Shown one piece after another: positions 8,103 through 56,747 of a stretch of DNA of 64,000 nucleotides. The stretch is from DHVE2 group archaeon. Lineage in GTDB: Archaea; Thermoplasmatota; Thermoplasmata; Thermoplasmatales; Aciduliprofundaceae. The stretch covers positions 1-64,000 of the forward strand of contig JALWRZ010000003.1 of NCBI GenBank assembly GCA_026993785.1, in the 5' to 3' direction. The stretch's first letter is position 1; each line of letters begins with the position of its first letter. The translations under genes were made by a program, and so were the position numbers. The notes beneath the pieces were generated by a model. The model saw nothing but the letters and a program-made list of their open reading frames with translations. It had not been told where the DNA came from and searched no databases.

Positions 8103-8616
8103 AGGTGCCTACAAGGGTACCTGTTATTATTCTCATCAGATTGCTACTCTCATAGGGAGTTAAAAGCTGAAGAACGCCATCCAATCCGAGAGGAACAACG
8201 CTCAGAAGATACAGAGAGAAGCCGATTCTAACCCTATAAAGTGCACCGATGAGAGAGCCAAAGGCGAGGCCCAAGAAGATCCCCGTGCATCTTGCGCAAT
8301 AAGCCATCTGGTTACCATGGATGAAGAAGGAGCGATTGGCATGCTGATGACACATGAAATCTCCAGAAAGATAAATCCAGCGTGCGATTTTGTTGTGGAT
8401 ATGCGTAGTGATATAAGCGGAGTTGTCCATCACACTTACCTTCCCCTCATTGCCCAGATAGATTGTGTGGGGCGGCTGCGTAAAAGGTGTTAGAAAAAGA
8501 AGTAGCACCCAGGTAAAAAGTAAAGCAAATGGTAAGAAACCAAGAATAGATAGCTTTTTCTTTTTACTTATCTCCAATGTTAGGGTTTCCAATAACAGTT
8601 CCCTGGTAATTTCCAC
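8044..8616 (-). CDS. DUF2085 family membrane protein
   Basis: A 190-residue protein with four predicted spans and the DUF2085 signature around CHQHANRSFFIHGN and YCARCTGIFLG (conserved Cys and His residues, perhaps metal-binding). The GTG at 8616 has AGAGGTGA just upstream, so this long start, overlapping pyrH by 53 nt, is favoured over a TTG at 8577. It is co-directional with and downstream of pyrH and converges with the UPF0248 gene. Its function is unknown. Confidence 0.8.
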   Translation of the reverse strand: MEITRELLLETLTLEISKKKKLSILGFLPFALLFTWVLLLFLTPFTQPPHTIYLGNEGKVSVMDNSAYITTHIHNKIARWIYLSGDFMCHQHANRSFFIHGNQMAYCARCTGIFLGLAFGSLIGALYRVRIGFSLYLLSVVPLGLDGVLQLLTPYESSNLMRIITGTLVGTFTALVFWYVVQDLQEFSHK

Positions 8617-9247
8617 CGTTTATCACCTCTTTCACCGTTGCTATTTCCCTGCCCACTATAACAATCTCTATTCCGCTCCTCTCTGCAATTTTAAGCGAGA
8701 GAAGATCAAAGGGGATGTTGAGGCCCGCGTTCATCTTCTCTTTCATAAACATATTCTTTGCGTCTTGATAGCTCATTCTCCTGATCAACCTCGCGTCTTT
8801 GTATTTTCTTGGATCCTTATCATATATGCCTCCTACGGAGGTCATGTTTATCACTCTCTTCTCCCCCAGTTTCTCTGCAAGGAGAAGTGATACAGCATCA
8901 GTGGTATGTCCTGGCTCCGTGCCACCCATAACCACCACATTATACGATGAAGATGCAGCGCAAGCCTCCTCCACACTTTTTGCCACCATGGGATAGGAGT
9001 ATCCCCCCAAAAGTAGATGTGCATTTAACCTGGTGGCAAGCACTCCTATCTCGTCAAGAGTGAATTGGTCCAGCCCCAATTCCTTCCCTGCTGCGATATA
9101 TTTCCTGGCAGTGGCACCACCTCCTACCACCACGAAGATTTTCCTCTGCCGGGATTCTTCCCTCAAAAATTGCCTAAATTCCTGGATGTACTTCACATCT
9201 ATTTCTCGGCCTGCAACTATGGAGCCTCCTAGGGATATCACAACCAT
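8564..9247 (-). CDS. pyrH: UMP kinase (archaeal PyrH)
   Basis: A 227-residue amino-acid-kinase-fold enzyme that phosphorylates UMP to UDP. MVVISLGGSIV gives the phosphate-binding start, VVVGGGATARKYI the glycine-rich loop and GGTEPGHTTDAVS the UMP-binding segment. NMTSVGGIYDKDPRK completes the pattern. The N-terminus lacks the bacterial extension, as in archaeal PyrH. It is the first gene of a two-gene unit with the DUF2085 protein. Pyrimidine genes pyrKD and pyrF occur elsewhere in the window. Confidence 0.95.
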   Translation of the reverse strand: MVVISLGGSIVAGREIDVKYIQEFRQFLREESRQRKIFVVVGGGATARKYIAAGKELGLDQFTLDEIGVLATRLNAHLLLGGYSYPMVAKSVEEACAASSSYNVVVMGGTEPGHTTDAVSLLLAEKLGEKRVINMTSVGGIYDKDPRKYKDARLIRRMSYQDAKNMFMKEKMNAGLNIPFDLLSLKIAERSGIEIVIVGREIATVKEVINGGNYQGTVIGNPNIGDK

Positions 9248-9281
9248 AGAAGATTATGGTCTTACCCTTTAAAAAATTTGT

Positions 9282-9412
9282 CTACGAAGGGGGCTGACGC
9301 CCCCTTTCTAAACCCCCACGAGTTTTGTTGGTTGCAGGAGGTAAAGGAACTCGCTGGTGGTTCCTGCCCCCTCTCTACACTCCCGCAGGTTAGGTTGGCT
9401 GCAAGAGAGGAA
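9282..9412. repeat. GC-rich intergenic repeat element, copy A
   Basis: Upstream of pyrH, CTACGAAGGGGGC pairs with GCCCCCTTT and is followed by CTAAACCCCCACG. This is one unit of the hairpin family seen at 35580, 47083 and 56650. The right part (TTGGTTGCAGGAGG ... GGTTCCTGCCCCCTC) resembles, in reverse complement, 46800-46860. The 60-residue ORF over this stretch is not credible as a gene. Confidence 0.6.
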
Positions 9413-13237: not shown

Positions 13238-13337
13238 TTATGCGGATATAGGTTAAAGTAATATCTGGCTCCTTGTTCTACTTGCTAAAGAGAGTTGAGT
13301 TGGTCTATGCAGAGACAAGAGGCAAAAAAGTATTGTG

Positions 13338-13533
13338 ATTTGTGAGCAAACCTCGCTTTAGCGGGGCAATGCATATGTGCCACTAAACTCTGTTTAAAGA
13401 AGGGAGAGGGGTAGGGGGAGAACGAGCAACGGAAGATGCGAGCTTTCCCTCCTGCGGGGACTAAACAAGCAAGTCCCGTGGATTTGCGAGCAAGCCCTGC
13501 GTAGAAGGGCGAGGCATAGGTGCCCCTTCGTAG
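13338..13533. repeat. Two copies of a GC-rich hairpin repeat (minus orientation)
   Basis: The 400-nt gap 13163-13563 has no convincing ORF. GTGGATTTGCGAGCAAGCCC at 13478 onward to CTTCGTAG at 13533 is, in reverse complement, close to the units at 46861 and 46988 (ACGAAGGGGCACCTACGCAG ... GCAGGGCTTGCTCGCAAA). A more diverged copy lies at about 13338-13375 (GATTTGTGAGCAAACCTCGC). Each has an internal hairpin. They look like copies of one intergenic element. Confidence 0.6.
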
Positions 13534-34571: not shown

Positions 34572-35039
34572 TCATTTCTGCAGAGAGAGCAACGCATCCC
34601 TTAGAGCCTGTTCTGCAATTTTTCTTTTAATCTCGCTCCTGCTCCCAGAAAAAATATAGCGATTTGTCCTAAGACTCCAGGGCGTTTTTATCCCAATATA
34701 CACAAGCCCCACAGGTTTTTCCGGTGTCCCTCCACCCGGCCCCGCTATACCAGTAGTTGAAATTGCCACATCCGCATTAAAAATCCTACTCGCGGATTTC
34801 ACCATCTCCAGGGCACATTCTTCACTTACCGCACCATACTTCAAAATCGTTTCCTCTTTCACCCCAAGGATTTTAATCTTGGCATCATTGCTATAAGCCA
34901 CAATCCCACCTAAGAAATATTCTGAAGCTCCAGGTATCTCTGTGATGAAATGCCCGATGAGTCCTCCTGTGCAAGACTCTGCGACCGCCAGCTTCAGTCC
35001 TCTATCTCTCAATACTCTACCAAGCTGCTCAGCTATCAT
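34572..35039 (-). CDS. CinA C-terminal domain protein (NMN amidohydrolase type)
   Basis: A 155-residue stand-alone CinA/PncC domain. LAVAESCTGGLIGHFIT has the catalytic Ser-Cys-Thr region, ILKYGAVSEECALEM and ISTTGIAGPGGGTPEKPVG the rest. It deamidates nicotinamide mononucleotide to nicotinic acid mononucleotide in the bacterial pathway. It overlaps the NMN adenylyltransferase gene by 4 nt, which argues strongly for a role in NAD salvage here. Confidence 0.92.
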   Translation of the reverse strand: MIAEQLGRVLRDRGLKLAVAESCTGGLIGHFITEIPGASEYFLGGIVAYSNDAKIKILGVKEETILKYGAVSEECALEMVKSASRIFNADVAISTTGIAGPGGGTPEKPVGLVYIGIKTPWSLRTNRYIFSGSRSEIKRKIAEQALRDALLSLQK

Positions 35040-35548
35040 TCTTCATCACTGAGTGCAAGTTCTCTTAGCCTGGAAATACCATCGATCTCCTTTATGGTCT
35101 CCGCCACGGGCTCAGGAACTAAATGCTCCCAGGGCTTTCCCAGAATTATTCTTCTTCTTATTTCTCGACCCGAGTATTTTCTCCTATCGTAGAATGGCGG
35201 AACTTCCACCTTGTAGCCTTTCTCCTTGAAAAGTCTCTTGGTAAGGGGATTGTTTGCGAATACCACATCAAAGGGTGGAGCTATCGCCTCCACATGGGCC
35301 ACCCAGATGGCATTACGGTGCAGGTCTTCGATGGGTACAAGATAGTAATTGTGAATACCCTCAGCTTCAAGACTTCTCGAAATCATAAGATGTCTTTCAC
35401 CTGCGGTAAAGGGATTATCAAGAGTATGAGAATACTGTGCACTACCTATACCAATTATTACCGCTTCGTACTTGGAGATTATATATTTTACCACTTCCAT
35501 ATGCCCCTTGTGGAAGGGCTGAAATCTGCCAATTACCAGTGCACGCAT
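35036..35548 (-). CDS. Nicotinamide-nucleotide adenylyltransferase (archaeal NadM)
   Basis: A 170-residue nucleotidyltransferase. ALVIGRFQPFHKGHMEVV holds the HxGH-type site, GIGSAQYSHTLDNPFTAGER the archaeal insert, and YSGREIRRRI the second catalytic segment. It joins NMN and ATP to NAD. It overlaps the CinA gene by 4 nt. A perfect palindromic repeat lies in its upstream region. Confidence 0.96.
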   Translation of the reverse strand: MRALVIGRFQPFHKGHMEVVKYIISKYEAVIIGIGSAQYSHTLDNPFTAGERHLMISRSLEAEGIHNYYLVPIEDLHRNAIWVAHVEAIAPPFDVVFANNPLTKRLFKEKGYKVEVPPFYDRRKYSGREIRRRIILGKPWEHLVPEPVAETIKEIDGISRLRELALSDEE

Positions 35549-35579: not shown

Positions 35580-35616
35580 TTTCCTACGAAGGGGGCGAAG
35601 CCCCCTTCGTAGGAAA
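35580..35616. repeat. Perfect 17-bp palindrome, hairpin-repeat family copy B
   Basis: TTTCCTACGAAGGGGGC, loop GAA, then GCCCCCTTCGTAGGAAA. The arms match exactly over 17 bp. It sits between the divergent starts of nadM and the 35660 gene. It is one symmetrical unit of the family also at 9282, 47083 and 56650. Confidence 0.85.
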
Positions 35617-35659: not shown

Positions 35660-35941
35660 ATGTATGTGGTACTCAAATTCAAACCCGGTGAGAAAAAAAT
35701 CGAGGAGCTGTATAGGGACGATGTGGTAGGAAGACAGAGCATAATAAAGAGAGATGCTAAAAGTCTTGGGCTCGAAGGTAACGAAATCTATCTTCTTGTG
35801 GAAGGAAGTAAAGAAGCAATCAAGAGAGTCCGCGAAATAGCGGGGGATAATGAGTTAAAGGAAGGTGTAGAGAAAATTTACCAGAAAATAAAAGAGGCCG
35901 AGGAAGAGGCCTCCCTGGGAATGGGGGCAATATTTGGATGA
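35660..35941 (+). CDS. Small conserved-context protein, unknown
   Basis: A 93-residue alpha/beta protein, acidic and helical at the C-terminus (KIKEAEEEASLGMGAIFG). The start has GGGTG about 8 nt before the ATG. It overlaps nep1 by 4 nt, so it is co-expressed with ribosome-biogenesis factors Nep1 and a CRM-domain protein. I do not recognise the family. A role near ribosome assembly is inference from context. Confidence 0.7.
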   Translation: MYVVLKFKPGEKKIEELYRDDVVGRQSIIKRDAKSLGLEGNEIYLLVEGSKEAIKRVREIAGDNELKEGVEKIYQKIKEAEEEASLGMGAIFG

Positions 35942-45210: not shown

Positions 45211-46746
45211 CTACGATTCCAGTAATCTTTTAAGAAGCGCCGCGAGGGTCTTGTTTTTCATTCTTTTCACATTTCCAATTCTTGCCCCTTTCTCTTTCGC
45301 AATGTGCTTTATCGCAAGAATTAGCGATTCCCTGAGTTCTGTATTTTCCTCCTCAAGCCTTTGAATATCTTCCTTGGAGATGCTCAATGCTCTTTTCAGA
45401 GCCCCCGCTAGCTCATTCTTCTCCACAAGTTCACCAAGTTCCTTATCTCCCTTTTCCTTCGCAAACTCCCGGAGCAGCTCTCTCATTTCTTTTAAAGCAG
45501 AATCCATCTTCTCTCTATCCCTATCTGTCCAGGAAATACGCTTTAAAAGCTCTCTTGCCTCAAGATTTCCAGGTTCAAGTTTGAGCGCCTCCTGAAGGGC
45601 ATCCTCTGCATCCTTTCTTCTCCCTCTTTTCAGATAAATCTGTGCAAGGAGAACCCATCCCCTCGCATCCGATTTTCTCTTAAGATATTCCATAACTTCG
45701 TTCTGTGCCTTTTCGTATTTTCTCCTATCGAAGTAAAGATACGCTTTGTTAAGATAGGCATCTGCAAAATCGGGATTAAATTTAAGAGCCGTGTTGTAGC
45801 TTTGCAGGGCCTCATCATACTTGCCCAAGTACTTCAATGCAATTCCCCTGTTGTTCCAAATTTCCGGTAGGTCCTCCCTTATTTTGAGGGCATTTTCATA
45901 GCAAAGGAGAGCCTCCTGATATTTATCTTGCTGAAGCATTATATTACCGCGATTTATCCAGCAAGCCACATTTCTACTGTTGAATCTGACGCATTGCTGA
46001 TACGCCTTCTCTGCCTCATCGTAATCTCCAATCTCCTCCAGTATTTCGCCCAGTAGAAGCCAGGCAGAGTCGTCTTCCACATTTTCCTCTAGCACTGAAG
46101 TGAGCAGAGGGATGGCCTCTTCTCCTCTTCCCATTTTGAAAAGAATCTCCGCCTTGAGTTTTTTGGCTCGCGAGGTTTCCTTTATTCTGAGCGCCCTATT
46201 TACATATTCCAATGCTCTCTCGTAATTCTTGCTTCTCAAAAACTCCTCTGCCCACTGAAGCATAGAGTCCAGCTCTCCAGCACTCGGTAGATATCTGCCT
46301 TCCCGCGCCTCTTCACCCCTCTTCTCCTGTAGCAAATCCTCTTTAAGTCCAAAATTGGTGAGTAACCTATCAAAATCGCGCCACTCCATAAGCGTGACAT
46401 TATCGCTTTCTAGACTTTTTGCATCATCCTCAAACTCTCCCGTGGTGATAATCATCCATCGCAGCTCCACGGTTTCCTCGGAGAAAATCATATCCAATAG
46501 CTCTTCCTTACTAACCTTTTCTTTTCTCAAAAAAACAATTACATAGTGAAGGGCATTTCCAGGAATGTGCATATATGCATCCAGAACCACCACATCTTCC
46601 CGATACACACTTTTCCTTATTTTAAATCCCATAAGGGATGCAAGGCGGTTGCAGAGACGGGCAAAGCTCTCAAGATCCATCTCCAATATCTTTTTTCTAA
46701 GCTCCCCGCTTGAGGCTTCCCTGCCCTTCAATCCCTTAACTTCCAC
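45211..46746 (-). CDS. Mrr-like N-terminal domain fused to TPR repeats
   Basis: A 511-residue protein. Residues about 20-140 resemble the Mrr/restriction-endonuclease-like fold (SFARLCNRLASLMGFKIRKS, VVVLDAYMHIPG, WMIITTGEFEDDAKSL). The usual catalytic Gln-x-Lys is not evident and the region may be inactive. Eight or so TPR units follow (about 165-400, e.g. AWLLLGEILEEIGDYDEAEKAY). A coiled, charged C-terminus ends the protein. It starts on GTG with a TATA-like box about 24 nt upstream. Role unknown. Confidence 0.75.
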   Translation of the reverse strand: MEVKGLKGREASSGELRKKILEMDLESFARLCNRLASLMGFKIRKSVYREDVVVLDAYMHIPGNALHYVIVFLRKEKVSKEELLDMIFSEETVELRWMIITTGEFEDDAKSLESDNVTLMEWRDFDRLLTNFGLKEDLLQEKRGEEAREGRYLPSAGELDSMLQWAEEFLRSKNYERALEYVNRALRIKETSRAKKLKAEILFKMGRGEEAIPLLTSVLEENVEDDSAWLLLGEILEEIGDYDEAEKAYQQCVRFNSRNVACWINRGNIMLQQDKYQEALLCYENALKIREDLPEIWNNRGIALKYLGKYDEALQSYNTALKFNPDFADAYLNKAYLYFDRRKYEKAQNEVMEYLKRKSDARGWVLLAQIYLKRGRRKDAEDALQEALKLEPGNLEARELLKRISWTDRDREKMDSALKEMRELLREFAKEKGDKELGELVEKNELAGALKRALSISKEDIQRLEEENTELRESLILAIKHIAKEKGARIGNVKRMKNKTLAALLKRLLES

Positions 46747-46795
46747 AATACACTAACTGCATAATGGAATAAAAGTTTTTCTTAGGCTATGGGAA

Positions 46796-47040
46796 CCTCC
46801 GGCGGGTTCCCATTCCCTCCTGCGACCAAACGATGCGATGAACCTCCGGCAGGTTCCCCACGAAGGGGCACCTACGCAGCGCCCTGCTAAAAAGCAGGGC
46901 TTGCTCGCAAACCCGCAGGATTTGCTCGTTTCCCCTTTCTAAACCCCTCCCTTTTATGGGGATTTAGAAAAGGGGCTATGCCCACCTTCTTGGGGCATCT
47001 ACGCAGCGCCCTGCTAAAAAGCAGGGCTTGCTCGCATCTC
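46796..47040. repeat. Repeat-rich intergenic region with two 45-nt direct repeats
   Basis: This is most of the 499-nt gap between the TPR gene and tRNA-Val. GGGGCACCTACGCAGCGCCC onward recurs at 46865-46909 and 46992-47036 with one mismatch. Each copy holds the hairpin GCCCTGCTAAAAAGCAGGGC. A further segment (46800-46860) matches 9325-9400 in reverse. The 82-residue track ORF over the area is a repeat artefact. Confidence 0.8.
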
Positions 47041-47082
47041 ACGATGCTCATTTCCCCTCTACCCTCTCCCTTTTATTGGGGG

Positions 47083-47208
47083 TGTAGAGAGGGGGTGAAA
47101 CCCCCTTCGAGGTTTAGAAAGGGGGCTTCGCCCCCTTCGTGGGGGTGTAGAGAGGGGGCTGTTCCCTCCTTCGGGGGTTTAGAAAGGGGGCTTCGCCCCC
47201 TTCTTGCC
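47083..47208. repeat. Four tandem ~32-nt GC-rich hairpin units
   Basis: Units at 47083, 47113, 47146 and 47178 alternate TGTAGAGA and TTTAGAAA heads, each followed by GGGGGC-TTCG-CCCCC-like hairpins and TTCG. The same units occur in reverse order at 56650. The array sits 37 nt upstream of a tRNA gene. Confidence 0.8.
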
Positions 47209-47245
47209 ACAAAATTTAAAAGCTAAATCAACATTTACCATCTCA

Positions 47246-47321
<76 letters not shown>

Positions 47322-55990: not shown

Positions 55991-56623
55991 TTACAGAGTT
56001 TCCTGATATAATCTTTTAGCGGCTTCCCTTGGATTTTCCGAGTTATATATGCTTCTTCCCACGATAATATAATCAGCTCCGTTTTCTATGGCTTCTCTAG
56101 CTTTTCCACCCTGGACGCCTACCCCTGGAGCCAGAATTTCCATGCTTCCTGCAAGCTCTCTTATTCTCCTCAATCTCTCAGGTCTGGTGGCAGGTGCAAT
56201 GAGTCCATAGGCACCCTCTTTTTTTGCCATTTCTATTATTCCTTCAGTATGAGGTTGCATGAAATCCAGAGCTCCAGGATGCGACATCTCTGCCACCACA
56301 TATACCTTCATATCTCCCGCAGCATCAATAGCTGCTCTCAGAGAATCATGACCCACGAAACCATGCACAATGATTCCTGATGCTCCATGCCTCCTTGCCT
56401 GCTCCACTATCAATCTGGTTGTGTTGGGTATATCCGCCACCTTGAAATCACAAATAACCTCGGTTATTTTTGCCACTTCATCTACTATTTCCATTCCTGC
56501 CGAGAGAACAACCGGCCAGCCAATCTTTACAGCGTGCAGATACTCTTTCGTTTCTTCCACTATTTCCAGAGCTCTTCTCTTATCTGCGATATCCAGAGCA
56601 AGTATCACGCTACTCATTACCAC
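55991..56623 (-). CDS. pyrF: Orotidine 5'-phosphate decarboxylase
   Basis: A 210-residue TIM-barrel enzyme making UMP. ILALDIADKRRALEI, VICDFKVADIPNTTRLI (the DxKxxD catalytic motif) and ILAPGVGVQGGKAREAI are diagnostic. The start may be 56623 or the later ATG at 56617. It is convergent with the small membrane gene by 1 nt and preceded by a hairpin-repeat region. Confidence 0.96.
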   Translation of the reverse strand: MVMSSVILALDIADKRRALEIVEETKEYLHAVKIGWPVVLSAGMEIVDEVAKITEVICDFKVADIPNTTRLIVEQARRHGASGIIVHGFVGHDSLRAAIDAAGDMKVYVVAEMSHPGALDFMQPHTEGIIEMAKKEGAYGLIAPATRPERLRRIRELAGSMEILAPGVGVQGGKAREAIENGADYIIVGRSIYNSENPREAAKRLYQETL

Positions 56624-56649
56624 TCCATAGCTTTCCTATACTTAAACCA

Positions 56650-56738
56650 TTCCTACGAAGGGGGCGAAGCCCCCTTTCTAAACCCCCGAAGGGGGGCACA
56701 GCCCCCCTCTCTACACCCCCACGAAGGGGGCTACACCC
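56650..56738. repeat. GC-rich hairpin repeat array, copy C
   Basis: TCCTACGAAGGGGGCGAAGC, CCCCCTTTCTAAA, CCCCCGAAGGGGGGCACAGC and CTCTCTACA appear in series, then CCCCCACGAAGGGGGC. These are the units at 47083 in reverse complement. It lies between pyrF and the 57179 gene. Confidence 0.8.
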
Positions 56739-56747
56739 TTTCTCTAT

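Follow-up and report, generated by a model that had tools for sequence, protein, structure and literature searches.

The window analysed here, a 64-kb stretch of DNA from a DHVE2-type archaeon, carries between two genes a tandem array of G+C-rich hairpin units of about 32 nt. The question raised by this locus is what kind of element such units belong to, and what determines where the copies stand. An earlier note, made from the sequence alone, had described the array as one site of a dispersed family of intergenic hairpins with alternating heads.

Hairpin modules of a composite element

The tandem units were found where the note had placed them, at 47081-47206 with heads in the order TGTAGAGA, TTTAGAAA, TGTAGAGA, TTTAGAAA, as were the reversed copies at about 56650-56743 and the further copies at 9282-9313 and 35580-35616. 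Each of these is intergenic when checked against gene calls, and it is agreed that no transposase or CRISPR gene lies beside the units. The sequence TTTAGAAAGGGGG has 12 matches in the window where 3.1 are expected (0 of 100 shuffles as high), and genome-wide the unit pattern gives 84 head matches compared to 6 for a reversed-pattern control. Strict alternation of the heads, as at the 47083 array, is a local trait; other loci read TTT-TTT-TTT or TGT-TGT, and alternation is not a defining property of the family, in which 33 of 75 units carry TGTAGAGA and 41 of 75 carry TTTAGAAA. The stem of the proposed GGGGGC-TTCG-CCCCC unit is kept and is nearly constant among copies, but the loop is variable (TGAAA, CTTCG, CGTCAG, CTCCG and others). 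The copy at 35580, previously taken for a single unit, is present but headless, being a perfect palindrome with a putative TATA box on each side.

The family of dispersed intergenic hairpins is therefore real as described, but the 32-nt unit is one module only of a composite element, and the 47083 array forms one extremity of an element of ~420 nt (Table 1). In this 1.66-Mb DHVE2-type Thermoplasmata genome, 51 element stretches, delimited by the depth of repeat coverage across stretches fetched around copies, amount to 12.1 kb, or ~0.7% of the sequence. The elements are mosaics of hairpin modules A, B and C, in which the 32-nt C-units are joined by at least two others. The A-module is a GGGAACC-loop-GGTTCCC hairpin with a conserved loop, and the B-module is a double hairpin composed of CTACGCAGC-GCCCTGC...GCAGGGC followed by CTCGC-stem-GCTCG. 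C-units are arranged mostly head-to-tail, and B-modules occur with occasional reversed heads. An Rfam search of the window returned two tRNAs only, with no match of the repeat units to any structured-RNA family; this agrees with the note's statement that the units match no element it could name, although their build resembles that of bacterial REP/BIME sequences and one of the heads has a GTAG-like tag.

The second stem of the B-module varies among copies with its pairing kept (GCATC/GATGC, GCAAATCC/GGATTTGC, GCAATTCT/AGAATTGC and GCAACC/GGTTGC). In this hairpin 58 of 72 inner cells are paired, compared to 44.4 +/- 3.3 in shuffled sets, a value reached by 0 of 5000 shuffles when distinct full sequences are counted and by 191 of 5000 when distinct arm combinations alone are counted. 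The sixth pair of the C-unit is paired in 8 of 8 cases (equalled by 79 of 5000 shuffles), and covariation in the A-module is not significant, its arms being too uniform. Some C-unit loops of this genome, in the window and at other loci (L038-L077), occur in both orientations (CTCCG/CGGAG, GCTGTGC/GCACAGC and CTTCG/CGAAG). These look like loops inverted inside their stems; among 12 distinct loops, 4 occur both ways round, an excess that is suggestive only (reached by 47 of 5000 shuffles).

Table 1. Repeat elements, modules and adjoining promoter features in the 64-kb window
Feature	Position	Strand	Context
Whole mosaic element	46787..47208	+	Divergent gap between gene 45211-46746(-) and tRNA-Val 47246(+); ssDNA fold z = -6.95 vs shuffles
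A-module hairpin GGGAACC...GGTTCCC	46791..46811	+	Outer end toward promoter of gene 45211-46746(-)
B-module, two hairpins: GCCCTGCT/AGCAGGGC, then GCAAACCC/GGATTTGC type	46865..46930	+	
Degenerate C-unit	46961..46991	+	Flanked by both B-modules
Second B-module: GCCCTGCT/AGCAGGGC, then GCATC/GATGC	46992..47055	+	
C-unit with TGTAGAGA head	47081..47111	+	
C-unit with TTTAGAAA head	47111..47141	+	
C-unit with TGTAGAGA head, imperfect stem	47144..47174	+	
Terminal C-unit with TTTAGAAA head	47176..47206	+	Toward tRNA-Val promoter
Putative BRE/TATA CAAAATTTAAAAG of tRNA-Val 47246-47320	47210..47222	+	Directly past element end
Tandem C-units	56650..56743	-	Upstream of pyrF-like gene 55991-56617(-); TATA-like TACTTAAA (+ strand) at 56639-56646
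C-unit (9282-9313), then hybrid module with second TGTAGAGA head (9367-9379)	9282..9411	-	Faces gene 8564-9247(-)
Perfect 37-nt palindrome TTTCCTACGAAGGGGGC-GAA-GCCCCCTTCGTAGGAAA	35580..35616	.	Between divergent genes 35036-35548(-) and 35660-35941(+); putative TATA both sides; z = -8.9
B-type-module element without C-units	13337..13532	.	Right end GGTGCCCCTTCGTAG toward gene 13564(+)

Fixed register to core promoters

The reading of the array as a hairpin family is thus partly supported, but it missed the informative property of these elements, which is that their ends lie flush with core promoters, mostly between divergent genes. Gaps bearing an element are divergent in 35 of 49 cases, compared to 36 of 132 element-free gaps (odds ratio 6.7, p 1e-7), the background gaps being those of the window and of the DNA flanking these loci, not a whole-genome count, with simple gene calls made in this analysis. 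When the 38 terminal C-units are aligned, a BRE rich in purines and a TATA rich in T and A fall at a constant position beyond them. As scanned with a promoter matrix trained on the promoters of element-free genes only, a putative TATA starts 8-12 nt beyond the TTCG end of the terminal C-unit in 34 of the 38, and the register of the elements to core promoters is fixed. A-ends often lie 7-15 nt from a putative TATA and are less strictly placed than C-ends.

G+C-rich hairpins, with T-rich DNA after some of them, might also be read as transcription terminators, or as hairpins for processing RNA from the upstream genes. Most copies, however, stand between the starts of two genes, a position without transcript ends, and the T-run past the unit belongs to the next gene as its TATA box and is common to relatives without the hairpin; this explanation is considered very improbable.

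Promoter-guided placement has as its main rival a model in which copies insert at random and selection, acting on a compact genome, spares those in the only harmless spot, the short DNA just upstream of the BRE, so that the survivors look targeted. Element-free divergent gaps are indeed short, about 100 nt, and in most pairs 12-79 nt separate the two TATA boxes; in relatives the upstream genes themselves stop at the BRE (pyrB, cdc48 and topA). Compaction alone draws many neighbours near promoters. The spacing argues against it: when insertion was simulated at random, using the TATA spacing of 18 element-free divergent pairs (edges mostly 12-79 nt apart), the best 5-nt window held a fraction of at most 0.31, against the 89% observed (p about 5e-14), which is far tighter than random placement in such gaps. 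Orientation in tandem gaps likewise counts against it, as the C-end and not the A-end points toward the promoter in about 9/10 clear cases (nine such cases, at 9268 and 56635 in the window and at seven other loci, and one opposite case, L048, with the C-end toward a gene end). Random insertion with selection is held to be rather unlikely as the sole explanation.

Several tRNA promoters (Ser, Leu, Phe, Pro, Thr and Val) are adjoined by elements, at 47246 in the window and at four other loci, possibly more often than expected.

Distribution in relatives and entry into new DNA

The family reading called for further copies in the genome or in relatives, and copies are found in both. Strict matches number 11, 6 and 3 in three same-genus draft genomes and fewer in five genomes from elsewhere in the family, and none occur among 23 genomes of other families in the same order; a pattern scan of named genomes gave matches in Thermoplasmata/DHVE2 MAGs only. 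Among the genomes searched, copies are limited to one archaeal family. Copy numbers in draft relatives are probably undercounted because copies stand at contig ends (two contigs each in G001 and G002).

Orthologues of fourteen flanking genes were located with one chimeric protein query, and the upstream regions of twelve genes were compared in six relatives. The element is absent from 53 of the 60 orthologous upstream regions, a few of which are short because of contig ends, and element sequence is present in the other seven: topA (G003, G009), ipk (G001), nmnat (G007) and purC, rps8e and rps12 (G002). Element presence or absence thus differs between species, all such comparisons being between different species. 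Relatives without an element keep the same TATA/BRE, as read by eye, at rps12 (AATAAAATTTTTATAT), cdc48 (AAAGTTTATTAAC), pyrB (GGTAAATTTAAATATATC) and topA (TTTTTTTAC), which shows that at several of these genes (rps12, cdc48, pyrB) the promoter predates the element; the elements therefore came to stand directly before core promoters that already existed. At rps12 the promoter is abutted by a C-module in the present genome and by a different module, GGGGAACCGTAGGTGCCCC, in G002, as if each had reached this site independently.

These comparisons bear on a further explanation, that the elements are selected for a regulatory or topological role, in which hairpins extruded by negative supercoiling between divergent promoters would act as insulators or topoisomerase sites. 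Such a role would suit the divergent placement, the maintained stems and the strong ssDNA folding, as well as a gyrase B encoded by the genome itself and the elements that adjoin topA promoters in three species from two genera (L062, L088/L100 and L081/L101), other relatives being without. It is modelled on the BIMEs of E. coli, which bind gyrase, and the present elements might do so by analogy. Most orthologous promoters, however, lack an element even inside the genus, the flanking genes form no coherent regulon, and template switching can also keep palindromes perfect with no need of selection; selection for such a role appears improbable as the main cause. A separate link to the location of gyrB was rejected, the gyrB domain (C11:4051-4554) having its closest element about 2.5 kb off.

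Entry into new DNA is seen in an IS5-like transposase gene that contains an internal C-unit in three relatives (G007, G011 and G005), and of which G007 also has eight unit-free copies of 277 aa. Between empty and filled copies, TCGCA[TAGAAATGTAATTGA]A is swapped for the C-unit, with loss of both R and E from the Y-(2)-R-(3)-E motif, and the reading frame is preserved in the filled genes of G007 and G011. Target-site duplication was not observed; where a filled site could be cleanly compared with an empty one, at a single site, about 15 nt are replaced instead. Since empty and filled copies exist, a single C-unit can evidently enter new DNA, apparently by replacement and not by duplication. The dispersed, non-coding character of the elements and this unit within a transposase gene might suggest a MITE of a DDE insertion sequence, with the units as its terminal inverted repeats. 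But the C-unit is there an insert that replaces the catalytic R..E codons, empty copies exist, and the present genome holds only remnants of such transposase genes. Element borders vary by module, and the terminal inverted repeats and target-site duplication that a MITE has in common with an autonomous IS were not found, making this the least probable of the explanations weighed.

Searches for Y1, DDE and TnpB genes identified no mobilising enzyme. In the present genome neither a Y1 transposase or RAYT (PF01797) nor a DDE_Tnp_1 gene over the cut-off was found, and TnpB and DDE transposases were rejected as partners with sub-threshold remnants only. Y1 genes are present in 2 of 13 relatives, each beside a TnpB gene as in ordinary IS200/IS605 elements, and no hairpin modules matched in the stretches fetched around them; RAYT mobilisation was rejected on both grounds, that the genome is without a Y1 gene and that the relatives' IS200/IS605 elements are unlinked to the repeats. 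One of these TnpA+TnpB elements (L178, in G002) lies between genes resembling neighbours of two elements of the present genome (L065 and L067); the other (L179) is in G003. Viral carriage was also rejected, as two pattern matches in viral contigs were both read as chance, one lying in a G+C-rich tailed-phage-like region and the other being a simple terminator-like hairpin in an A+T-rich contig.

On balance, the units are probably non-autonomous mosaic palindromic repeats of REP/BIME-like build, belonging to Aciduliprofundum-type (DHVE2) archaea and added directly upstream of existing core promoters. Copies would be added by insertion or template-copying just upstream of a pre-existing core promoter, most often between two back-to-back promoters, with the outer hairpin stopping at the upstream BRE/TATA edge. 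The promoter itself may guide placement, through open or TBP/TFB-bound DNA or through microhomology with the BRE/TATA, and the spreading enzyme would not be a RAYT. Hairpins (cruciforms) between divergent promoters may be tolerated, or may be useful as a topological spacer. We propose more tentatively that these are archaeal mobile or amplifying hairpins whose integration is directed by the core promoter complex (TBP/TFB on BRE-TATA), so that a non-RAYT enzyme inserts them at a set distance on the upstream side of the TATA. If true, an archaeal family with nucleotide-level promoter register and no such transposase would point to another route by which palindromic DNA spreads, and its elements would be a natural archive of sites where initiation complexes form. 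The elements would also offer a ready test of whether hairpins insulate divergent genes from each other's supercoiling, and the system is testable because the archaeal family has cultivated members (Aciduliprofundum).

Comparison with known systems

Precise insertion beside an assembled initiation complex, including that of tRNA genes, is a property of eukaryotic elements of the Ty3/Tf1 type. The comparison extends to how the systems work only, as the archaeal elements are non-coding hairpins with no retroelement, integrase or LTR. Rickettsia palindromic elements are palindromes found in frame inside protein genes, and the C-unit in the relatives' IS5-like transposase resembles them in this respect. 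The likeness is one of description, and unlike those elements the copies seen in the present genome are all intergenic.

The closest likeness is to bacterial GTAG-class REP/BIME sequences, which are accompanied by RAYTs and for which no register to promoters is known. Like these, the archaeal units are short, G+C-rich, imperfect palindromes, present in many extragenic copies and in mosaic clusters. A GTAG tetranucleotide at the foot of the hairpin is not a feature of the family: in 33 of 75 units (TGTAGAGA) GTAG stands off the stem by a few nt, and 41 of 75 (TTTAGAAA) have TTTAG. A Y1 transposase that could serve as cognate RAYT is absent from the genome. The family is called REP-like, and is not filed as a member of the GTAG class, because of what was found for the tag and the cognate RAYT. 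The TGTAGAGA head with its GGGGGC...GCCCCC stem recalls the REPs of P. fluorescens (GTGGGAGGGGGCTTGCCCCCGAT) and S. maltophilia (TGTAGAGCCGAGCCCATGCTCGGCT) (PMC2817692). CGTC-class REPs are described as palindromic repeats without a dedicated transposase, a feature that the archaeal elements share, and the passages concerned make no mention of promoter abutment (PMC3733652); they occur in other taxa and have a CGTC end tag, whereas the archaeal units are flanked by TTTAG/TGTAG and TTCG. RepRanger reports REPs in other archaea, with no mention of Aciduliprofundum, Thermoplasma or promoters (PMC12306157), and neither this element family nor promoter abutment was described in the literature searched. 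Compared to REP/BIMEs, the archaeal elements are distinguished by head-to-tail arrays with other hairpin modules mixed in, by the fixed position of the outer end next to the TATA box, and by their enrichment between divergent genes.
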